DNA of 64,000 bases from Gammaproteobacteria bacterium (GTDB taxonomy: Bacteria; Pseudomonadota; Gammaproteobacteria; Nitrosococcales; Methylophagaceae): the NCBI GenBank assembly GCA_029248745.1, contig JAQWIT010000020.1, positions 124,001 to 188,000 on the forward strand. Direction: 5' to 3'. The notes under the pieces are model-generated. The model was not told the origin of the DNA. It did no database searches and saw only the letters and a program-made list of their open reading frames with translations. How positions within the stretch are numbered: position 1 is the first letter of the stretch; each line of letters opens with the position of its first letter. A program made the translations under genes and the position numbers. Shown one piece after another: positions 18,336 to 27,472 of this stretch.

Positions 18336-18953
18336 TTATTTCATCTGACAAAAACGTTGCCAATCAGAAAAAGTATCTACGTCCCATTGCAATTCTGTCA
18401 GCTTATAACGCAAATCTAATGTTTCTACCCTATCTAAAGTAGCTGACAAAACCTGATTCGATCCCCAAGTTATGTCATTAAACAACATTGGTTGGGGGTA
18501 ATCGCAACCAATCATCACATAACCACCATCTTCCGCCGGCGATAAAACAACATCATAGTGTTTTAAGTCTGCTAAAGCTTGTTGTATATCGGCTTCAGAC
18601 AAGGAAGGACAGTCACATCCTATCAGCAAAGCACGATCAAAATGTTTCAGACTACTTTGAAGTGCATGATCCATCTTGACACCTAAATCACCATCACATT
18701 GTTGATACAATGTCACACCATAGTCCTCAACACATTGCTGAAAAAACGCATGTTCTGTATTAGGTGAACACCATAGCTGAGTCGGGCAAAGCGCTGCTTG
18801 TAATAACCAGTCTAATAAGCGCTGAGTTAGTTTTCTATGAGCTACAGCTGCCTGCTCAGAAGACAATTCAGGGCTTAATCTAGTTTTAACCTGGCCTGGA
18901 ACGGGTGCCTTGCAAAACACAATGAGACAGGCATTAGGATATTGGTAAACCAT
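18336..18953 (-). CDS. TIGR04282 family arsenosugar-biosynthesis glycosyltransferase
   Basis: 205 residues, full family length. Nucleotidyl/glycosyltransferase (DUF2064) fold: CLIVFCKAPVPGQVKTRLSP at the N terminus carries the nucleotide-binding loop; RALLIGCDCPSLS has the conserved metal-binding DxD-like site; LSPAEDGGYVMIG and DITWGSNQVL are family blocks. Proteins of this family co-occur with ArsM and ArsS and are thought to help build or modify the sugar moiety of arsenosugars. Start ATG lies two bases after the stop of the sterol-desaturase gene; one operon. Confidence 0.88.
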   Translation of the reverse strand: MVYQYPNACLIVFCKAPVPGQVKTRLSPELSSEQAAVAHRKLTQRLLDWLLQAALCPTQLWCSPNTEHAFFQQCVEDYGVTLYQQCDGDLGVKMDHALQSSLKHFDRALLIGCDCPSLSEADIQQALADLKHYDVVLSPAEDGGYVMIGCDYPQPMLFNDITWGSNQVLSATLDRVETLDLRYKLTELQWDVDTFSDWQRFCQMK

Positions 18954-18955
18954 CT

Positions 18956-19735
18956 CTATGGTTTAAATGGCATCAACAATAGTTTTTTTAATGTCACTGC
19001 TGAGCTATATCGAAACTGGGATAAACCAATTTTCATACCCTTTTGTCCTAGCGCCGGTTCACCTATATAAGTACCAAAAAGCCGATCCCATATACTAATC
19101 GAAAAACCAAAGTTGCTGTCTGTTTCTGTCTGAGTTGAAGAGTGATGAATACGGTGCATATCCGGAGTAACCAACAGCCATCTCAAACGTTTATCCCAGC
19201 GAACAGGAATCATAATATTGCCGTGATTAAATAATGCACTCGTGCTCAAAATTAATTCGAAAATAAGCACGGCCAATGCTGGTGCGCCTAATAGGCTGAT
19301 AATAATGACTTTATAAACCAATGACAAAATGATTTCGACCGGATGGAAACGAACAGCCGTCGTCACATCAAAATCTAGATCAGTATGATGCACTTTATGT
19401 AAGCGCCACAGTAATGGCCAGCGATGCATCGCCAAGTGTTGTCCAAACAGGGCCAAGTCCAACGATATTAACGCAACTACAAGCGATAACCATTGAGGTA
19501 AGATAAGCATATTTAACAGACCGAACTCCATTTCACTCGCTAATATGGCCGCAAAATAAGCAATGCCTCCAATGCTAAGCCGTAATAACATTGCAGTAAT
19601 CGCTGACAAACCGATATTGATGGGCCAACGTTGCCAGCGAGAGTAACGAAGTTGTCGACGAGGTGCTCTGGCTTCCCACAACATCATCATAATTAACGTT
19701 CCAACAAAAACACCTAAACGAATTAACGTATCCAA
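18956..19735 (-). CDS. Sterol desaturase / fatty acid hydroxylase family membrane enzyme
   Basis: 259 residues, several membrane segments (about residues 5-20, 35-55, 70-95, 145-165). The histidine motifs for a di-iron centre are complete: HLAMHR, then HKVHHTD, and HRIHHSS, in correct order and spacing for the FA-hydroxylase superfamily. It hydroxylates or desaturates a membrane-lipid-type substrate in this superfamily; the substrate here is unknown. It sits between the two arsenosugar glycosyltransferases, overlapping the upstream one by 13 bases, so a role on the arsenosugar or an arsenolipid is a reasonable inference. Confidence 0.85.
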   Translation of the reverse strand: MDTLIRLGVFVGTLIMMMLWEARAPRRQLRYSRWQRWPINIGLSAITAMLLRLSIGGIAYFAAILASEMEFGLLNMLILPQWLSLVVALISLDLALFGQHLAMHRWPLLWRLHKVHHTDLDFDVTTAVRFHPVEIILSLVYKVIIISLLGAPALAVLIFELILSTSALFNHGNIMIPVRWDKRLRWLLVTPDMHRIHHSSTQTETDSNFGFSISIWDRLFGTYIGEPALGQKGMKIGLSQFRYSSAVTLKKLLLMPFKP

Positions 19736-20415
19736 AACTGTCCTCGTCGATAAAGTTGAGAAAGATAATCAGGATCAGCGCCGAAAAAATATTGTAAACG
19801 GCACCATAACATCAATACGACCGTTTTAATAACGCCAAGTTCCACCCAACGTCGAGCAGAGGTTTCAACACAATGACGAAGTCGATAGGGTTTAGCGAAA
19901 GACTTTAATTGCTTAGATAAAGCAATATCTTCCATCAAAGCAATATCGGGAAACTGCCCTACTCTATTAAATAGATCTCGTGTGACAAAAAGCGCTTGAT
20001 CACCGGTCACAATATGCGTGAGTGCCGATCGGGCATTCATTAACAAGGCGATAATCGGTAATAAAAAATGCTGCCCCATTAATCGTACATCAAACCTGCC
20101 CCACTGATAGCCTGTCTCAATAGCTGATTGAATTTGTACTGTCGCACTTTCAGGCAAAAACGTATCTGCATGCAAAAATAATAAGATCTCTGATTGGGCC
20201 ACTTCAGCACCTGCATTCATCTGCTTAGCCCGCCCTGGCTCGGAAATCACACATCGGTCGACATAAGCTTTAGCCAAAGCCACCGTCTCGTCATTACTCT
20301 GCCCGTCTACTAATATTAACTCGCAATGCCACCGTAACTTTTGCAATCGGGATAAGAAAAAGACAATGCCTTTTTCTTCATTTAAACAAGGAATAATAAT
20401 GCTTAACTCCGCCAT
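19723..20415 (-). CDS. TIGR04283 family arsenosugar-biosynthesis glycosyltransferase
   Basis: 230 residues. GT-A family 2 fold: LSIIIPCLNEEKGI at the N terminus, LILVDGQSNDETVALA, SEPGRAKQMNAGAEVAQSE and LLFLHADTFLP (the DxD), then the ED motif in LMEDIALSKQL. The C terminus has a hydrophobic membrane-associating stretch (VIKTVVLMLWCRLQYFFG). This is the second glycosyltransferase of arsenosugar-type clusters. Start ATG at 20415; stop overlaps the start of the sterol-desaturase gene. Confidence 0.88.
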   Translation of the reverse strand: MAELSIIIPCLNEEKGIVFFLSRLQKLRWHCELILVDGQSNDETVALAKAYVDRCVISEPGRAKQMNAGAEVAQSEILLFLHADTFLPESATVQIQSAIETGYQWGRFDVRLMGQHFLLPIIALLMNARSALTHIVTGDQALFVTRDLFNRVGQFPDIALMEDIALSKQLKSFAKPYRLRHCVETSARRWVELGVIKTVVLMLWCRLQYFFGADPDYLSQLYRRGQFWIR

Positions 20416-20449
20416 AAAATTTCTTTCAGAAAGTTCGTCCAGTCGTTAA

Positions 20450-20752
20450 CTATTTTCGTATTATATCAGTACTATTAAAGCTGGAATTTCCCTCGTTATA
20501 TGGAATATAATCGAGGCTTTCTATTAATGATTTTCCTTCAAAGTTCGGTATCAAACGATAAGTCCTTGAAATAACGGAAAACACACTTTTATTGTTTGGT
20601 TTTACAAAATCAGCTTTAAGTGACTTGCCTTCATTAATCCAAAATTCTATAAGTAATTCCTCAAGGTCGGTCCCTTCACAAGCAGATATTGCATCTCCTT
20701 CTGTCAAGAAAACATCTAAGCTTTTGTCATCAGGGTCAAGTGCTAAAATCAT
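20450..20752 (-). CDS. Hypothetical protein, 100 residues, in the arsenosugar-type operon
   Basis: No recognised domain, signal peptide or membrane segment. The protein is acidic in its first half (DPDDKSLDVFLTEGD, DLEELLIEFW) and low in cysteine (one Cys), so it is not an obvious metal chaperone. It begins six bases after the arsM stop and ends 34 bases before the glycosyltransferase, clearly in the same transcript. It is not a member of the core arsenosugar gene set that I know of. Its base composition looks slightly more AT-rich than its neighbours, which could mean recent insertion. Confidence 0.55.
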   Translation of the reverse strand: MILALDPDDKSLDVFLTEGDAISACEGTDLEELLIEFWINEGKSLKADFVKPNNKSVFSVISRTYRLIPNFEGKSLIESLDYIPYNEGNSSFNSTDIIRK

Positions 20753-20758
20753 GGAAAA

Positions 20759-21877
20759 TTAACAACAATTCTCTACCGATTCCATACCAGTATGAGAAGC
20801 ACCTTTCGTTTCACCTGCTGGCCGGATAGTACCAGCCGGTTTACACCAATTAACCGCAGGTTTTAATTCCGCCGGTGTAATACCAATAAAATCATCTTTA
20901 TATACGCCACTAGTCATTAAATCAAAACTACGAGCACACGTCGCAATACGTTGACCACGCGGATAAACATGTCCCTCGTCATCATAAACTTCCGAATACG
21001 GGCCGCGATAGATTACCGCATGTCCAACATCTAAACAGGATTCATCTTGTGGCTTAATAGCAGTGATAGTCACAGAACGAAACTCGATAGCTTCGACAAC
21101 CTGCCATGGCTCTGCTTCCCATTTATCATAAGCGACGGCGACAAAACCCGCTTTAACAAAAGCATCTAACATTTTTTGCTCTTGTAATGCACCTGAGATA
21201 CAACCACTCCACAAGGTAGGATCTGCCTTTAAATGATCAGGTACCAACTCGTCGCTAATAATATCTGAAATGGCAACACGACCGCCCGGCTTAATGACCC
21301 GGAATATTTCATCTATCATCTTGGTTTTATCACTATCCTGAACTAAATTAAGCACACAATTAGAAACGACTAAGTCAATAGAATTATTCTTGATCAAAGG
21401 TGAGGTAATTGCCTGTGTTTGTTGCCATGTTTGTAGACGCAATAGAGCATCAGCATCAGACACGGGCGTTTTGGACAGTTGTTCATCAACAGCAGCCAAA
21501 TCAACTGCCAAATCTTGAATTAAACCTTTAACAAACTCAACACGATTACTACCTAATTTTTCAGCCATTTCAACCTGATATTTTTTAGCCAAATCCAACA
21601 TATCGTCATTCATATCAATGCCGATAACGTAACCTTGCTCTCCCACCAATTGTGCCGCCATATAACAAATTTTGCCTGACCCCGAACCGAGATCAAGTAC
21701 CGTATCGCCTTCACGAACATAACGCGAAGGATCGCCACAGCCATAATCTTTTTCGATGATTTCTTGAGGCAATAAAGCCAGTAACGAAGCATCATAATCA
21801 ACAGGACAGCATAAATCTGGCTGACGGGATTCAGCCCCTTCCGAATATCTATCTAATACACTATGCTCAAGTGCCAT
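20759..21877 (-). CDS. arsM: Arsenite S-adenosylmethionine methyltransferase ArsM, arsenosugar type
   Basis: 372 residues. The SAM motif VLDLGSGSGKICYMAA is at about residues 60-75. Arsenic-ligand cysteines of the ArsM family are in place: Cys47 in YGCGDPSRYV, then SNCVLNLV and LWSGCISGAL; an extra CC pair at 23-24 and a C-terminal CC (VENCC) are present. The C-terminal extension beyond about residue 270 is typical of the versions paired with the radical SAM protein ArsS. It methylates As(III) to dimethylarsenic species, the precursor to arsenosugars. Followed immediately by the small unknown gene. Confidence 0.9.
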   Translation of the reverse strand: MALEHSVLDRYSEGAESRQPDLCCPVDYDASLLALLPQEIIEKDYGCGDPSRYVREGDTVLDLGSGSGKICYMAAQLVGEQGYVIGIDMNDDMLDLAKKYQVEMAEKLGSNRVEFVKGLIQDLAVDLAAVDEQLSKTPVSDADALLRLQTWQQTQAITSPLIKNNSIDLVVSNCVLNLVQDSDKTKMIDEIFRVIKPGGRVAISDIISDELVPDHLKADPTLWSGCISGALQEQKMLDAFVKAGFVAVAYDKWEAEPWQVVEAIEFRSVTITAIKPQDESCLDVGHAVIYRGPYSEVYDDEGHVYPRGQRIATCARSFDLMTSGVYKDDFIGITPAELKPAVNWCKPAGTIRPAGETKGASHTGMESVENCC

Positions 21878-21902
21878 TTATTTTCTTCCTAAGTAACAAT
21901 AT

Positions 21903-22859
21903 TTATATTAAAGCGCCGCCACAACTACTGCCTTGTCCAGCCGTACAGCCAAAGCAATGTTGGCGTGTTGCTATCGGTTTACCTTCAAGCAGTTCATTTT
22001 TCAAACTACTAATATGTCGTGCGTCTTGATCAGCCAGTGGTAAATGCAACATTTGATTAAAATCACAATCGTAAACATACCCTTGCCAATCGACACTGAT
22101 TAGTTGACGACACATCACATCGGTTAATGTCGACTCATTGTAATTAGACACCAACAAACTCATATAATCGTCAAACTGCCCTTTGCTCATCAACATACTG
22201 CCAAAACGCTGTATTGGCATATTAGCCAAGGTATATAAATGGTTGAACACCACATCATAATGGGCAGATAAATTCTGTTTGTAACTGACCTCAAGCGCTT
22301 GTTGTTCTGGCGGTAAATTCATACCTTGCGGGTTAAAAACCAAATCTAATGTTAATCCACTATTTTCACGGCCATAGCCCAATGCATTCAACTGTTTCAA
22401 ACCCATTAAACTTTGTTGGAACACCCCATTTCCACGTTGTTTATCAACATTATCTTCAATATAACAAGGCAACGAAGCGACTATTTCAACTTTGTTTTCC
22501 GCCAAAAAAAAGGCCAAATCTTCATACCCTGTTTCTTGTAAAATAACCAAATTACATCTGTCAATCACCTTCAAACCTGATTGACGTGCCTGTTGTACGC
22601 AATAACGAAAGTGCGGATTCATTTCAGGTGCACCGCCAGTTAAATCGAGCGTAGTGGCACCAGCAGCGACTGCATAATCTAACACCGTATCAATCGATTC
22701 TTTTGTCATTAATTCAGTCCGTTTAGGACCGGCATTCACATGGCAATGCGTACAACTTAAATTACACAAATAACCCAAATTAACTTGAATGGTTTGTAAC
22801 CTATCCCTGTTAATATCTGGAAAGTGATTAACTTCTAACAAAGGGGCCGAATCTAACAT
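21903..22859 (-). CDS. arsS: Arsenosugar-biosynthesis radical SAM protein ArsS
   Basis: 318 residues. The radical SAM cluster motif is C32-x3-C36-x2-C39 (LCNLSCTHCHVNAGP). The TGGAPEMNPHFR block is the SAM-binding GGE-like motif, and the C terminus holds auxiliary cysteines (CFGCTAGQGSSCGGA), as expected for TIGR04167. ArsS transfers the 5'-deoxyadenosyl group to dimethylarsinous acid, giving the arsenosugar precursor. It lies 25 bases upstream of arsM in one operon, with TVP38 upstream. Confidence 0.92.
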   Translation of the reverse strand: MLDSAPLLEVNHFPDINRDRLQTIQVNLGYLCNLSCTHCHVNAGPKRTELMTKESIDTVLDYAVAAGATTLDLTGGAPEMNPHFRYCVQQARQSGLKVIDRCNLVILQETGYEDLAFFLAENKVEIVASLPCYIEDNVDKQRGNGVFQQSLMGLKQLNALGYGRENSGLTLDLVFNPQGMNLPPEQQALEVSYKQNLSAHYDVVFNHLYTLANMPIQRFGSMLMSKGQFDDYMSLLVSNYNESTLTDVMCRQLISVDWQGYVYDCDFNQMLHLPLADQDARHISSLKNELLEGKPIATRQHCFGCTAGQGSSCGGALI

Positions 22860-22865
22860 CTTTAA

Positions 22866-23558
22866 TTATCTATTCTCATAATCATCTCGGCTTTTGGAAG
22901 CGAAAACTGGCACCAGCATTAACAGTCCTAACAAAGCAAAAGCAAATAGCAGCTCACCAGAAAAAACCTGATCTAAACGTTCAATACTCGCCAACGACTG
23001 TCCTAGATTAGCAAATACAAAACTACCAGGTAGAATGCCAAAAAATGTCCCTAGCAGATACTGCTTTGTCTTAATTGTCGTCATCGCCATGGTTAAATTC
23101 ACTACCCAAAATGGAAATAACGGCACTAATCGTAAGAACAACAGGTACTGAAGTGAATGACGTTCAAATATCTGCATTATCTTCTGCGCGGCTGAAATGC
23201 CTTGTATTTTCGACTTGGCCCAATCATAAAACAAATAACGGGCAAGTAAAAAGACCAAAACAGCCCCTATTGTCGCTGCAACCACGAGTAAAACCCAACC
23301 TAACCAACGGCCAAAAACAAAGCCCATTAGTAAAGATAAAAAAGCCGCGCCCGGTAAACTCAAGGTCACCACAGTAATATAAATTGAGACCGCTAACAAT
23401 ACAGAAAAGACAAAATGGTTCTCCACATAACTCAATAGCGCCACTTTATAATCTTGAAATGCCGAAAGCGTTAAATAACTTGGCCCTTCAAAAATAAAAA
23501 AGAGTGCAAACAGTACCAGAATGAGCAACAAAATTAGCCACTTACCTGACACTGTCAC
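22866..23558 (-). CDS. TVP38/TMEM64 family membrane protein
   Basis: 230 residues with about six hydrophobic segments. The SNARE-associated (DedA-like) core is visible: LPGAAFLSLLMGFVFGRWLG, then YLLFLRLVPLFPFWVVN and GTFFGILPGSFVF. Family members are inner-membrane proteins, some acting as lipid scramblases or selenite-transport-related proteins. It commonly accompanies mercuric-reductase-like flavoproteins, as here (four-base overlap with the upstream reductase). Role in the arsenosugar-type operon is not known. Confidence 0.85.
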   Translation of the reverse strand: MTVSGKWLILLLILVLFALFFIFEGPSYLTLSAFQDYKVALLSYVENHFVFSVLLAVSIYITVVTLSLPGAAFLSLLMGFVFGRWLGWVLLVVAATIGAVLVFLLARYLFYDWAKSKIQGISAAQKIMQIFERHSLQYLLFLRLVPLFPFWVVNLTMAMTTIKTKQYLLGTFFGILPGSFVFANLGQSLASIERLDQVFSGELLFAFALLGLLMLVPVFASKSRDDYENR

Positions 23559-24982
23559 TTACCCCCACGCAAGCCAAAAACTTTTTTCAAAAGACGTTGT
23601 TTAAAAGGCGTTAGTTTCGATTTCAACCGAACATCTGCAACACGCCGATTGATTTGTGCCAAGCTTGGGTAAAGATGAATTGTTTTACTCAAAGCTGATA
23701 ACGATAAACCAGCTGACATCGCCAAACTGAATTCTGCGATCAATTCCCCTGCATGAGGGCCAACAATACTCGCACCCAATATTTTGCCACGAGGTGTTGT
23801 AATAATCTTGACAATCCCCTGTGCTTGATCGTCAACAATTGCACGATCTATTTCAGCAAAAGGAAAACAATAGACCTCATGTTGTTTATTTTGCTCACGT
23901 GCTTCCTGTTCTGACAAACCGACACGTGCCAACTCTGGTGATGTGAAAGTACACCAAGGAGTCCCCCTCTCCTGTGACTTAGCCGGTAAACGAAATAAAG
24001 TATTCCTCAATACAACGCCCGCCTGATGTTCTGCCATATGCGTAAATAAATAAGGGCCAGCAACATCACCGCAAGCAAAAATACGTCTGTTTGTTGTCCT
24101 CAAACGACTATCTAACTTTAAACGCCCAGAAATAATGTCAACCCCAGCTTTATCGAGCCCGAACCCATCAACATTGGCTAAACGCCCTGTAGCGACCAAC
24201 AAGTGACTTCCCTCGATGATTTTGTGTTTACCATTATCAATTTGTATGGCTAAACCGGTGTCTGTTTTCAACACCAGTTCGACATCGACATCTAAATACA
24301 AATCAATTTGTTCTGATTCAAACTGGCTTTTTACGACTGCCGATAAATCATTATCCTCCCGAGGCAATAAACCTGACTGGCTAATCATAGAGACTTTAGC
24401 GCCTAAACGCGCATAGCTTTGCGCCAGTTCACATGCAATAGGACCACTGCCAACAACAATAAGATGCTTAATTGTTTCGTCTGTACGAAAAATCGTTTCA
24501 TTCGTAAAGTAATCAACAATATCAAGACCCGTGATGTCAGGAATCAAAGGTCGAGATCCTGTCGCAACAACAAAATGTCGTGCCGTTATGGTCCGCTCAT
24601 CTGCAATGACGGTGGCATCATCAATAAATTGAGCTTTTGAAAACAGTACTTCAACACCCAGTTCTCGAAAACGTTCAGGGCTATCATTAGGCTCAATTTG
24701 TGCAATAACATCCTTAACCCGCCCTAATACTTTTTGCTGATCCACCGAGTCAAGTATGGCTGACAATCCAGCACGAGAAGATTGAGAAACGGTATGAGCA
24801 ACATGAGCAGAATGAATTAAGGCTTTGCTGGGAACACAGCCAGTATAAAGACAATCTCCACCTAATTTATTCTGTTCAATCAAAATGACCTTGGCACCTA
24901 AAGCTGCAGCGCCAGCTGCCGTGACTAAGCCAGCCGCACCACCGCCAATAATACAAAGGTCATAATCTGTTACATCTGCCAT
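23555..24982 (-). CDS. Mercuric-reductase-like FAD-dependent disulfide oxidoreductase
   Basis: 475 residues. FAD-binding GGGAAG (IIGGGAAGLVTAAG) at residues about 10-24, the redox-active pair in GGDCLYTGCVPSKAL, a second NAD(P)-binding GSGPIACELAQ, the ATG segment, and the C-terminal dimer motif with HLYPSLAQINRR. It lacks the C-terminal vicinal cysteines and the N-terminal heavy-metal domain of true MerA, so mercury reduction is not supported; the lpd/MerA-like designation is safer. First gene of the eight-gene arsenosugar-type operon, coupled to TVP38. Confidence 0.85.
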   Translation of the reverse strand: MADVTDYDLCIIGGGAAGLVTAAGAAALGAKVILIEQNKLGGDCLYTGCVPSKALIHSAHVAHTVSQSSRAGLSAILDSVDQQKVLGRVKDVIAQIEPNDSPERFRELGVEVLFSKAQFIDDATVIADERTITARHFVVATGSRPLIPDITGLDIVDYFTNETIFRTDETIKHLIVVGSGPIACELAQSYARLGAKVSMISQSGLLPREDNDLSAVVKSQFESEQIDLYLDVDVELVLKTDTGLAIQIDNGKHKIIEGSHLLVATGRLANVDGFGLDKAGVDIISGRLKLDSRLRTTNRRIFACGDVAGPYLFTHMAEHQAGVVLRNTLFRLPAKSQERGTPWCTFTSPELARVGLSEQEAREQNKQHEVYCFPFAEIDRAIVDDQAQGIVKIITTPRGKILGASIVGPHAGELIAEFSLAMSAGLSLSALSKTIHLYPSLAQINRRVADVRLKSKLTPFKQRLLKKVFGLRGGK

Positions 24983-25051
24983 AAAGCATCTCGTTCAGGG
25001 TCGTTATCTCTGTGACAACAAATAAGCTTAAAAAGTAAAACTCATTAAAAC

Positions 25052-25086
25052 AAAAAAACCCCTAATAAGAAAATCTCATTAGAGGC
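25052..25086 (-). terminator. Rho-independent terminator of the sulP-usp transcript
   Basis: Read on the minus strand, CCTCTAATGA and TTATTAGGGG form a ten-base stem (with G-U pairs) around a short loop, followed by seven T residues. It lies just downstream of the universal stress protein gene and upstream of the arsenosugar-type operon, so it separates the two transcripts. Confidence 0.8.
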
Positions 25087-25109
25087 TCCTCCACAACACA
25101 ATGGTTGAA

Positions 25110-25979
25110 TCAACGCACCAATATGAACTGAGTATTACTTTCAATTAACATTTGCGTTGTAAAACTACCAAAGAAAAAACCATGTAACTTACCATGGCTG
25201 AATGCGCCCATCACAGTAATATCGATACCATGCGTTGTTTGATAATGTGTTATGACCTCAACTGCTTCACCCGTCATAGCCTGACCTATCATATCGATAC
25301 CGGCATCATTTAAAACACTTTGAGCATCTTCTATCAGGTTCTGCGCATCACTGAGATTTTTCTGAACACTCACGACGTGAATTTCTAAGTCCTGCTTAAA
25401 CAGCGCCATGCTAGCCAATAAATTCAATGCTTTATGTGAGGTTGGACTACCATTGTAGGCAAACATCACTTTTTCAGGTGTTTTAAACCCTGATTTGACA
25501 ATAAAAATAGGTTTCTTAATGACCCGAATGGCATCTTCTAATTGTGCACCTAAGCCATGTAATTGTCCTTCATGGTCATGTCCTTTCGACCCTAAGACAA
25601 CCATCGATAACTGTGACTGCAAATCCAATAAAGCTTCAGGCAAACTGCCGTGTCTTTGCTTAGCAATAAGATCAGTGACGCCAGCAGCCTCAGCTTTGTC
25701 CTTAGCACCCTTTATGATCTGCTTGCCATCGGCAATTAGCTTTTTGCTTTCTAAACGCTCTTCATCTGACAATTCATCAAGTAAATGTTCCTTTATATTC
25801 GGCGTTAAATTACCTTCATGCCCAACTTGCTCACTATGATGAGAATGTTCGATCGTATGTAATAGTTTTAAGGGCGCTGAAGACTTTTTTGATAACCAAA
25901 TAGCGTAATCCAGTACTGAATCACTCAGCTCAGAACCATCTACACCGGTTAATATCAATCCATTTTTAGTCATCGTCAT
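25110..25979 (-). CDS. Tandem universal stress protein
   Basis: 289 residues with two Usp domains. The first begins GLILTGVDGSELSDSVLDYA and contains VVLGSKGHDHEGQLHG, the nucleotide-binding G-x2-G-x9-G-S/T-like loop; the second begins KVMFAYNGSPTSHKALNLL and ends ITVMGAFSHGKLHGFFFGSF. Two bases separate it from the SulP gene, so it probably senses or regulates that transporter. SulP-Usp pairs are common, and some act in bicarbonate or sulfate uptake. A terminator follows. Confidence 0.88.
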   Translation of the reverse strand: MTMTKNGLILTGVDGSELSDSVLDYAIWLSKKSSAPLKLLHTIEHSHHSEQVGHEGNLTPNIKEHLLDELSDEERLESKKLIADGKQIIKGAKDKAEAAGVTDLIAKQRHGSLPEALLDLQSQLSMVVLGSKGHDHEGQLHGLGAQLEDAIRVIKKPIFIVKSGFKTPEKVMFAYNGSPTSHKALNLLASMALFKQDLEIHVVSVQKNLSDAQNLIEDAQSVLNDAGIDMIGQAMTGEAVEVITHYQTTHGIDITVMGAFSHGKLHGFFFGSFTTQMLIESNTQFILVR

Positions 25980-25981
25980 TG

Positions 25982-27472
25982 TTAAAGACCTCCCATCATT
26001 TTTTCAACTTCTTCAGGCTTATCATGTACAGCAAATTTATCTAATAATGTTTCACTCGCTTCATTCAAGCCAACAATACTGACATCGGTTCCTTCGCGCC
26101 TTAGTTTTATCACGACCTTATCTAAAGCAGCCACACCCGTGATATCCCAAAAATGGGCACGATGCACATCGATCACAATTTTATCTACAGCTTCTTTAAA
26201 ATCGAAGAAACCAATAAATTTATCCGACGAATTAAAAAAGACCTGACCGATAATTTGATACGTTCGTGTATCACTGGCTTCATCATAGTCACTTTCAACC
26301 AGTAAGAATTGACTTAAACGTTGAGCCATAAACAAAGAACCAATCAAGATACCGGCAAAAACACCAAAGGCTAAGTTGTGCGTCCAGACCACTACAATAA
26401 CGGTGGCAACCATCACACTAGAAGCGCTAATAGGATTGGTCTTTAATTCCTTAATTGACGTCCAATTAAATGTCCCTACCGACACCATTATCATCACTGC
26501 AACCAAGGCAGCCATCGGCACAATGGATAAAATATCATTCAAAAATACGACGAGAATTAATAACAAAATACCCGCAACCATCGTCGACAATCGGCCTCGC
26601 CCACCTGATTTCACATTGATAATAGACTGGCCAATCATCGCGCAGCCTGCCATACCGCCAATTAAACCCGAACCAATATTAGCGACCCCTTGGCCTTTAC
26701 ACTCACGCTTTTTATCACTTTCGGTATCCGTCAATTCATCGATAACATTCGCTGTCATCAAAGACTCTAAAAGACCCACAATTGCAATAGAAATCGAATA
26801 TGGCAACACAATACTCAAAGTTTCAAATGTCAAAGGCACATCGGGCCACAAGAAGATAGGCAAAGTGTCAGGGAGTTCACCCATATCACCAATCGTTCTC
26901 ACCTCGATGCCAAAGAAATAAACGACTAAAGTTAAAACCACAATATTAACAAGAGGTGATGGTAATAAGGTGCCGATTTTTGGCACATAAGGGAATAAAT
27001 AGATAATAGCTAAACCCGCTGCTGTTAAAGCATACACATACCACGTTACGTTCGTAAGCTCCGGCAGCTGCGCTATAAAAATCAAAATCGCTAACGCATT
27101 TAAAAAGCCCGTCATAACCGACTTTGAGATAAAACTCATAAACTTATGGAGATTGAGATAACCAGCTACTATCTGCAAAACACCGGCTAAAATAGTCGCG
27201 ACCAAAAGGTATTGCAGACCATGATCTTTGACTAAAGTAACCATCAATAATGCTGTTGCTGCCGTTGCTGCTGAAATCATGCCCGCACGTCCACCGACTA
27301 TGGCGATAATGACGGCTATGGCAAATGAAGCATAGAGACCGACTTTTGGATCGACACCGGCAATAATAGAAAAGGCAATGGCTTCTGGCACGAGTGCCAG
27401 AGCGACGACAATACCAGCCAAAATGTCATTTCGAATATTGCCTAGCCAATCTTGTTTAGCTGATAACAGCAT
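25982..27472 (-). CDS. SulP family anion transporter with STAS domain
   Basis: 496 residues, 10-12 membrane helices. The SulP signature region (ALALVPEAIAFSIIAGVDPKVGLYA) is at residues about 20-45 and GMAGCAMIGQSIINVKSGGRGRLS near residue 275. The C terminus (about residues 400-496) is a STAS domain with HFWDITGVAALDKVV. Substrate may be sulfate or bicarbonate; sequence alone does not decide. The absence of RuBisCO or carboxysome genes nearby gives no support to a carbon-concentrating role here. Confidence 0.88.
   Translation of the reverse strand: MLLSAKQDWLGNIRNDILAGIVVALALVPEAIAFSIIAGVDPKVGLYASFAIAVIIAIVGGRAGMISAATAATALLMVTLVKDHGLQYLLVATILAGVLQIVAGYLNLHKFMSFISKSVMTGFLNALAILIFIAQLPELTNVTWYVYALTAAGLAIIYLFPYVPKIGTLLPSPLVNIVVLTLVVYFFGIEVRTIGDMGELPDTLPIFLWPDVPLTFETLSIVLPYSISIAIVGLLESLMTANVIDELTDTESDKKRECKGQGVANIGSGLIGGMAGCAMIGQSIINVKSGGRGRLSTMVAGILLLILVVFLNDILSIVPMAALVAVMIMVSVGTFNWTSIKELKTNPISASSVMVATVIVVVWTHNLAFGVFAGILIGSLFMAQRLSQFLLVESDYDEASDTRTYQIIGQVFFNSSDKFIGFFDFKEAVDKIVIDVHRAHFWDITGVAALDKVVIKLRREGTDVSIVGLNEASETLLDKFAVHDKPEEVEKMMGGL

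Follow-up and report, generated by a model that had tools for sequence, protein, structure and literature searches.

The window considered here is a stretch of 64,000 nucleotides from contig JAQWIT010000020.1, part of a 1.73 Mb genome of a gammaproteobacterium of the family Methylophagaceae, and the system in question is a run of genes for organic arsenic synthesis on its minus strand. In reading order, the run encodes a flavoprotein, a TVP38-type membrane protein, the radical S-adenosylmethionine (SAM) enzyme ArsS, an ArsM-type methyltransferase, an open reading frame (ORF) of 100 amino acids, a TIGR04283 glycosyltransferase, a membrane enzyme of the fatty acid (FA) hydroxylase/sterol-desaturase superfamily (hereafter the hydroxylase) and a TIGR04282 protein (Table 1). 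The genes are closely packed, with a 4-base pair (bp) overlap between flavoprotein and TVP38, gaps of 6, 25, 6 and 34 bp, a 13-bp overlap between TIGR04283 and the hydroxylase, and a final gap of 2 bp. A preliminary description had placed the seven named genes on one strand between 18336 and 24982, separated by overlaps or tiny gaps, and in both respects it was confirmed; its gene list did not hold the 100-amino-acid ORF. Its view of the run as an arsenosugar-type operon, and as a promising source of enzymes for the later pathway steps, is well supported by family scores, conserved gene order and genome-wide co-occurrence, and arsenosugars are very probably what the run serves to build.

Table 1. 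Genes and features of the run and its upstream border, in reading order; a hairpin 3' of the upstream gene is given last.
Feature	Coordinates	Strand	Remarks
Flavoprotein, FAD/NAD(P) disulfide oxidoreductase (MerA/lipoamide-dehydrogenase-like)	23555..24982	-	first gene of run; PF07992 + PF02852
TVP38-type VTT (DedA superfamily) membrane protein	22866..23558	-	PF09335, 85.7 bits
ArsS, radical SAM enzyme	21903..22859	-	TIGR04167, 464.4 bits (cut-off 300)
ArsM-type As(III) SAM methyltransferase	20759..21877	-	alignment to 4kw7 with three cysteines
Orphan ORF, 100 amino acids	20450..20752	-	between ArsM and TIGR04283; no family match
TIGR04283 protein, predicted GT-A glycosyltransferase (GT2-like)	19723..20415	-	258.4 bits (cut-off 182)
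FA-hydroxylase/sterol-desaturase superfamily membrane enzyme	18956..19735	-	PF04116, 98.9 bits
TIGR04282 protein, probable CofC/FbiD-type nucleotidyltransferase by fold and motif	18336..18953	-	201.7 bits (cut-off 134)
Terminator-like hairpin with T run	25051..25093	-	3' of upstream gene; hairpin scan

Enzymes of the ArsM family are known to convert As(III) into dimethylarsenic, to which those of the ArsS family attach a 5'-deoxyadenosyl group. The ArsS of the window exceeds the curated cut-off of its model, contains the Pfam domains DUF3641 and Radical_SAM, and has both the CX3CX2C motif and a cysteine-rich C-terminus, with C32, C36, C39, C302, C305 and C313 invariant in 13 aligned sequences. 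The ArsM falls under the cut-off of all the best-scoring ArsM models (NF040538, 352 versus 500 bits; PRK11873, 186 versus 263; NF038099, 132.5 versus 400), and by score it is not a member of NF038099, the arsenosugar ArsM model. Its cysteines align with residues 72, 174 and 224 of chain 4kw7 (the last located by counting), which we take to be the arsenic-binding positions.

The preliminary description had counted two glycosyltransferases in the run, of which one kept that assignment and one did not. The TIGR04283 protein, above its cut-off, belongs to a family named 'arsenosugar biosynthesis glycosyltransferase' by NCBIfam. Its GT-A motif residues are invariant, and the full set of invariant residues in 38 sequences is D37, G38, S40, D42, H82, D84, E162, D163, R188 and W190. 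The predicted structure (predicted local distance difference test, pLDDT, 95.6) matches WrtF, PcManGT, RmlT, glucosyl-3-phosphoglycerate synthase and polyprenyl-phosphate transferases. Score, motif residues and modelled fold thus agree that the protein looks like a GT-A glycosyltransferase.

The TIGR04282 protein is probably a metal-dependent nucleotidyltransferase and not a glycosyltransferase, as judged by its modelled fold and by aligned aspartates. The AlphaFold model, built with 38 aligned sequences, has a mean pLDDT of 97.6, and its Foldseek matches in the PDB include 3cgx, 7p97, 2i5e (CofC) and 6bwg (FbiD), with ranks 2-8 all of the CofC/FbiD type. The match at rank 2, 7p97, is a 3-phospho-D-glycerate guanylyltransferase with its product (template modelling score, TM, 0.75), and the first named glycosyltransferase is GtrB, at rank 31 with a TM of 0.47. 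D114, D191 and D193 are invariant in the 38 sequences and align with D116, D188 and D190 of FbiD, once an inferred offset of 14 is subtracted from the chain numbering; these FbiD residues hold two Mg ions, according to the accessible part of PMC6450877. The portion of the FbiD alignment with D191 and D193 is weak (0.9 bits), and the alignment to 2i5e, which spans both parts, is clearer. CofC models match the protein at 9.5e-10 and 8.7e-7, yet it scores below the cut-off of the CofC model TIGR03552 (38.4 versus 105 bits). Therefore, it would be CofC-like in its working without being a member of that family, and the NCBI name 'glycosyltransferase' is probably wrong for TIGR04282, given the match of fold and metal-binding aspartates to CofC and FbiD. 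No published test of a TIGR04282 or TIGR04283 gene, or of any enzyme acting after ArsS, was found in a search that left most of the subscription literature uncovered. In two papers the family names are used as annotation, and one TIGR04282 gene is labelled fbiD by annotation in PMC8801600.

The gene order of the run is conserved among close relatives. ArsS is present in 15 of 20 relatives' genomes searched, the window's own included, and in nine of 12 other genomes of the same genus. The exact seven-gene order, from flavoprotein through TVP38, ArsS, ArsM, TIGR04283 and hydroxylase to TIGR04282, is found in five of these nine. In three more the run is cut by contig ends and agrees with this order as far as it can be read. 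The ninth is arranged differently: TVP38 is fused to the flavoprotein, and the piece lacks a hydroxylase.

A wider census was taken of 140 ArsS loci, 60 from the same class and 80 named ones, reduced to 138 by dropping two duplicates; Methylomonas and Thiocapsa are among the genera represented. The sample is not random, in that the 60 were chosen as high scorers over the cut-off (the window's own and same-genus loci included) and the 80 were best-ranked, and many loci are cut by contig ends. Partners were sought with profiles made from the window's proteins and were counted when their start falls in the interval from -7 to +7.5 kb relative to ArsS. TIGR04283 and TIGR04282 are each near ArsS in 89 of the 138 loci, TVP38 in 51, the flavoprotein in 50, the ArsM clade of the window in 36 and the hydroxylase in 18; all six occur together in seven. 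Most copies share the strand of ArsS (hydroxylase 18/18, ArsM 36/36, TIGR04283 87/90, TIGR04282 87/90, TVP38 47/51, flavoprotein 46/52), and in three loci TIGR04283 and TIGR04282 form a single ORF. Since the partners recur near ArsS across the 138 loci, mostly on the same strand, their linkage exceeds chance.

Co-occurrence was examined in 274 genomes of the class, from 171 families. ArsS exceeds the cut-off in 135 of these and occurs as sub-cut-off fragments in three more, giving 138 genomes with ArsS and 136 without. The test covers TIGR04283, the hydroxylase, the flavoprotein, the ArsM clade, MTAP/MTIP-type phosphorylases and PhaC, at thresholds of our own choosing (E 1e-60, 1e-35, 1e-75 and 1e-45), and in one genome-wide scan scoring was limited to up to five first-look candidates per genome. 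Counts are given below as genomes with both genes, with ArsS only, with the other gene only and with neither. For TIGR04283 they are 129/9/9/127 (a set of 138 genomes was used, where the search count was 139), for the hydroxylase 113/25/18/118 (odds ratio 29.6) and for the flavoprotein 114/24/35/101. When each family is represented by a single genome, the odds ratios with ArsS become 176 for TIGR04283, 37 for the hydroxylase and 11 for the flavoprotein. Among 23 families that hold genomes both with and without ArsS, tracking is seen in 19 for TIGR04283, 17 for the hydroxylase and 12 for the flavoprotein; it is opposed in none, and the rest are ties. The sole control gene, PhaC, which is present in 55 of the 274 genomes and is rarer than the genes under test, gives 26/112/29/107, an odds ratio of 0.86 and no link. 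These counts indicate a statistical association of the hydroxylase and the flavoprotein with the arsenosugar genes that does not depend on their lying side by side. Incomplete metagenome-assembled genomes and genome size could contribute to the co-occurrence, but the null result for PhaC and the within-family contrast argue against these as its whole cause. The ArsM clade of the window gives 37/101/2/134 (E 1e-75). Therefore, most genomes with ArsS carry a different ArsM or none.

The preliminary description had called the operon complete, a claim that is not supported, as no enzyme to remove adenine from the ArsS product is encoded within the run. Only one PNP_UDP_1 protein was detected in the genome; it scores as an S-methyl-5'-thioinosine phosphorylase (350 bits, cut-off 223) and lies on another contig. 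Across the 274 genomes, MTAP/MTIP phosphorylases and ArsS give 128/10/66/70. In two genomes an MTAP match lies about 35 bp past the ArsS match and shares its strand. A PNP_UDP_1-type cluster (Pfam was run on one member) has a member that starts at most about 1 kb before ArsS in four of the 138 census loci, and in three of the four the strand is shared. Phosphorolysis would leave a sugar-1-phosphate, and this would fit a nucleotidyltransferase as the next step. As a separate observation, the two genomes with MTAP directly after ArsS belong to one family and are both without TIGR04283 over the cut-off, possibly reflecting a shorter arsenosugar pathway.

The remaining three proteins of the run are a flavoprotein and two membrane proteins. 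The flavoprotein had been described as mercuric-reductase-like; the resemblance stands, but membership does not, given a score of 355 bits against a TIGR02053 cut-off of 454. It has the Pfam domain Pyr_redox_2, and no fewer than 90% of 46 aligned homologues keep the active-site CxxxxC. Two further proteins of the preliminary description, TVP38 and the sterol-desaturase-like enzyme, were recovered as Pfam matches, the former through its VTT domain, which predicts membership of the TVP38/DedA superfamily. The latter has the histidine boxes of FA_hydroxylase and ten histidines invariant in 17 sequences, and is presumably a di-iron enzyme. It is not OlsE (80.9 bits against an NF052566 cut-off of 475). 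TVP38 and flavoprotein form a single ORF in 28 of the 138 ArsS loci. An apparent triple fusion of ArsS, TVP38 and flavoprotein at locus L147 was rejected as a reading-frame shift artefact, given that the flavoprotein resumes in another frame and the ArsS C-terminus is unlike that of relatives. Two side observations touch these genes. In four loci the genes for TVP38 and flavoprotein flank one for a cytochrome c that has five CxxCH motifs. At 15 of 59 pooled hydroxylase loci, a divergent gene no more than 1.5 kb from the hydroxylase encodes a fusion of an ArsR-type regulator with a rhodanese domain, and suggests metalloid- or sulfur-responsive control.

A stepwise model that accounts for the run is that it serves to make a finished, probably lipid-linked arsenosugar, a reading that, taken as a whole, we hold tentatively and rate a little short of an even chance. 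ArsM would produce dimethylarsenic from As(III), and ArsS would then attach the 5'-deoxyadenosyl group, as is known for these families. An MTAP/MTIP-type phosphorylase, acting in trans, would remove adenine to give 5-dimethylarsinoyl-ribose-1-phosphate. TIGR04282, whose reaction class is supported by fold and residues, would convert this sugar phosphate into a nucleoside diphosphate (NDP)-sugar. TIGR04283, a glycosyltransferase with the support of its fold, would pass the arsenoribose on to an acceptor of glycerol type, for example phosphatidylglycerol, as the structures of known arsenosugar-glycerol and arsenosugar-phospholipid compounds suggest. Hydroxylase, TVP38 and flavoprotein may act together as a membrane redox/oxygenase module on the lipid-linked product or its carrier, as fusion, adjacency and co-occurrence suggest, with the flavoprotein perhaps supplying reducing equivalents. 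The family assignments are as given above, and we infer the substrates and the order of the later steps. Any lipid-linked scheme has to account for the known products, which, according to PMC7345539, include arsenosugar-glycerol, arsenosugar phosphate and diacyl arsenosugar phospholipids.

Several results weigh against this model. The depositors of 3cgx, which ranks first among the structural matches of TIGR04282, describe it in their title as a putative nucleotide-diphospho-sugar transferase, and TIGR04282 could act on the acceptor side. Ten genomes with ArsS are without an MTAP/MTIP match. None of the six partners is near ArsS in 25 of the 138 census loci, some of which are cut by contig ends, and the hydroxylase is near ArsS in just 18, with most hydroxylase genes elsewhere. 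In the pieces read around 20 hydroxylase loci away from ArsS, TVP38 is present in four and ArsM in two. TVP38 fusions make up 18 of 20 flavoprotein loci, yet the pieces show ArsM at a single one of these loci and ArsS likewise at a single one. At the thresholds used, the hydroxylase is absent from 25 of 138 genomes with ArsS and present in 18 of 136 without it, and the flavoprotein is absent from 24 and present in 35, so neither is strictly tied to ArsS. Among genomes with ArsS, the two show no positive association with each other (both 91, flavoprotein only 23, hydroxylase only 22, neither 2; odds ratio 0.4, p 0.25), which weighs against a strict hydroxylase-flavoprotein pair. The arsenite pump gene acr3 was not found in the window's genome; other arsenite pumps were not searched for.

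The lack of a positive association between hydroxylase and flavoprotein in genomes with ArsS also speaks for a different role of the flavoprotein, namely that, with TVP38, it keeps dimethylarsenic or a thiol partner reduced for ArsS, and that the hydroxylase is an independent lipid enzyme. That would suit a disulfide-reductase family protein with its CxxxxC kept, and in 37 of the 138 ArsS loci TVP38 and flavoprotein are near and the hydroxylase is not. Set against it, the flavoprotein occurs in over a quarter of the genomes that have no ArsS and is missing from 24 that do, and in the genomes without ArsS the flavoprotein and the hydroxylase tend to occur together (14 genomes with both, 21 with just the flavoprotein, 4 with just the hydroxylase and 97 with neither; odds ratio 16). 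The two genes also adjoin there on occasion. TVP38, flavoprotein and hydroxylase lie together in one genome without ArsS over the cut-off, and in a second such genome the hydroxylase adjoins a more distant flavoprotein relative; in four others the order hydroxylase-TVP38-flavoprotein occurs far from ArsS or on other contigs. These regions were chosen because hydroxylase and flavoprotein matches were close. Among 12 hydroxylase loci from genomes without ArsS and TIGR04283 over the cut-off, the piece holds TVP38 in four and a flavoprotein in three. A search for a rival conserved neighbourhood in 20 hydroxylase and 20 flavoprotein regions found only two unassigned families common to at least four loci, in five and four loci, which are presumably GGDEF-like and ABC ATPase-like, respectively. 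Because they co-occur, and sometimes adjoin, in genomes without ArsS, hydroxylase and flavoprotein are proposed as one module, and the arsenic-reducing role is judged possible but on the whole unlikely.

In another arrangement of the later steps, TIGR04282 would resemble the best studied of its structural neighbours (3-phosphoglycerate guanylyltransferase, CofC) and activate phosphoglycerate or glycerol phosphate, and TIGR04283 would join this aglycone to an arsenoribose activated in some other way. The rank of the 3-phospho-D-glycerate enzyme among the structural matches, the hits from CofC models, and the existence of arsenosugar-glycerol, -phosphate and phospholipid products (in the part of PMC7345539 cited above) are in keeping with this arrangement. 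However, MTAP-type phosphorylases, the makers of ribose-1-phosphates, track ArsS and so point to a sugar-1-phosphate that needs activation. A GT-A glycosyltransferase, moreover, requires an NDP-sugar donor, and activation of the acceptor by TIGR04282 is accordingly thought somewhat improbable.

The hydroxylase, TVP38 and flavoprotein might instead be passengers of larger, aerobic genomes, leaving ArsM, ArsS and the two TIGR proteins as the pathway. COG0398 DedA proteins and their flavoprotein fusions are linked to aerobic metabolism, as stated in the accessible part of PMC10127716, most hydroxylase genes lie away from ArsS, and the co-occurrence counts are uncorrected for genome size and lifestyle. 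Yet PhaC, likewise an accessory gene, has no association with ArsS, and the within-family contrast shows the hydroxylase tracking ArsS in 17 families and the flavoprotein in 12, with none opposed in either case. In addition, six genomes have the hydroxylase tightly next to TIGR04283 or ArsM at a site remote from ArsS. In three of these it is less than 100 bp from TIGR04283 and shares its strand, with ArsS far off or on another contig, and in the other three, one of them without ArsS over the cut-off, it is less than 100 bp from ArsM on the same strand, all as read by eye from coordinates. We therefore regard mere passage as quite unlikely. Finally, a product of another organoarsenical type, such as one like arsinothricin, is very improbable: the top ArsM model is indeed that of the arsinothricin ArsM, NF040538, but its cut-off is not reached, ArsS matches the arsenosugar model and the partners are TIGR04282 and TIGR04283.

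Arsenosugars and arsenolipids are major organic forms of arsenic in aquatic food webs, and the stepwise model offers candidates for their later synthesis. Nucleotidyl transfer is proposed here as the reaction class of TIGR04282, and an MTAP-type phosphorylase is ranked as the adenine-removing step. The membrane hydroxylase and the flavoprotein, which track ArsS across genomes of 171 families, become candidates for steps without an assigned enzyme. In a bolder and rather doubtful form of the model, hydroxylase, TVP38 and flavoprotein would make up a dedicated arsenolipid-finishing machine, in which a flavoprotein held at the membrane by the VTT protein, in some cases within a single polypeptide, feeds electrons to a di-iron oxygenase that oxidises the lipid-linked arsenosugar from TIGR04282 and TIGR04283. 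If true, many Gammaproteobacteria would make oxidised arsenolipids of a class not yet described.

The 100-amino-acid ORF between ArsM and TIGR04283 is an unlikely component of the pathway. It has no Pfam, NCBIfam or plasmid match, the ORFs at other ArsS loci include nothing related to it, and the spacing between ArsM and TIGR04283 in same-genus operons is too short to hold it. Of 20 genomes searched it was found in one, its own, and it is therefore probably a private insertion. The upstream border of the run is likely marked by the hairpin of Table 1, which would separate the upstream gene from the operon. A scan of 300 bases found two such sites, the other within the upstream gene, compared with 0.3 in shuffles, and no sigma-70 consensus promoter was found in the region around the hairpin. 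Further upstream, on the same strand, 25110-27472 holds a gene with a SulP-type permease match below the model cut-off and a second gene, presumably stress-protein-like. Downstream, a DarP gene follows at 38 bp.

Other families recur around ArsS in the census, outside the set found in the run. One, in 19 loci and mostly after ArsS, has no Pfam match and is presumably phosphoesterase-like; another, in 11 loci, has an SSF symporter match below the cut-off. The two are found on beta- and gammaproteobacterial contigs, mostly after ArsS and on its strand, in ten loci among others. Families of DUF547, DUF3047, PHO4 and DUF3179 also recur, and nine loci encode, within about 8 kb of ArsS, a two-part protein that presumably joins an NADH-dehydrogenase-like part to one resembling selenide water dikinase. 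Plasmids carry ArsS relatives as well, in 58 records of which 47 are from Burkholderia; among 20 listed, 19 are plasmids of B. glumae on which the gene is annotated arsS.

The run can be compared with several known systems. With the ArsM and ArsS arsenosugar pathway of Synechocystis and others (the enzymology of ArsS being cited through the accessible part of PMC12159101, its ref. 61) it shares the ArsS family, an adjoining ArsM and, as read here from the genes alone, radical SAM adenosylation of arsenic. Unlike that pathway alone, it also holds TIGR04283, TIGR04282, the hydroxylase, TVP38 and the flavoprotein, for none of which a tested role came up in the literature searched. One of these may have a parallel, as slr0305 of Synechocystis is named a Tvp38 homologue in the available text of PMC3836016. 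The hydroxylase belongs to the same FA_hydroxylase superfamily as the ornithine-lipid hydroxylase OlsE, but lies far below the OlsE cut-off. In Synechocystis, slr0303, slr0304 and slr0305 may be arsM, arsS and the Tvp38 gene in a row. The pairing of a COG0398 DedA protein with a pyridine nucleotide-disulfide oxidoreductase is the commonest COG0398 DedA fusion, according to the accessible part of PMC10127716. The same domain pair is found here as neighbours and, in the 28 loci, as one ORF; the accessible text on these fusions is without mention of arsenic, and the link to ArsS comes from the present analysis. With the CofC/FbiD guanylyltransferases (7p97, 2i5e and 6bwg), the TIGR04282 protein shares the fold, a KxRL stretch and the three metal-binding aspartates, but it falls short of the TIGR03552 cut-off. 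The likeness to CofC was already noted in NCBIfam, where the short name of TIGR04282 is glyco_like_cofC. The window proteins exceed the NCBIfam cut-offs of both TIGR04282 and TIGR04283, and are linked to ArsS as the names of the two families imply.

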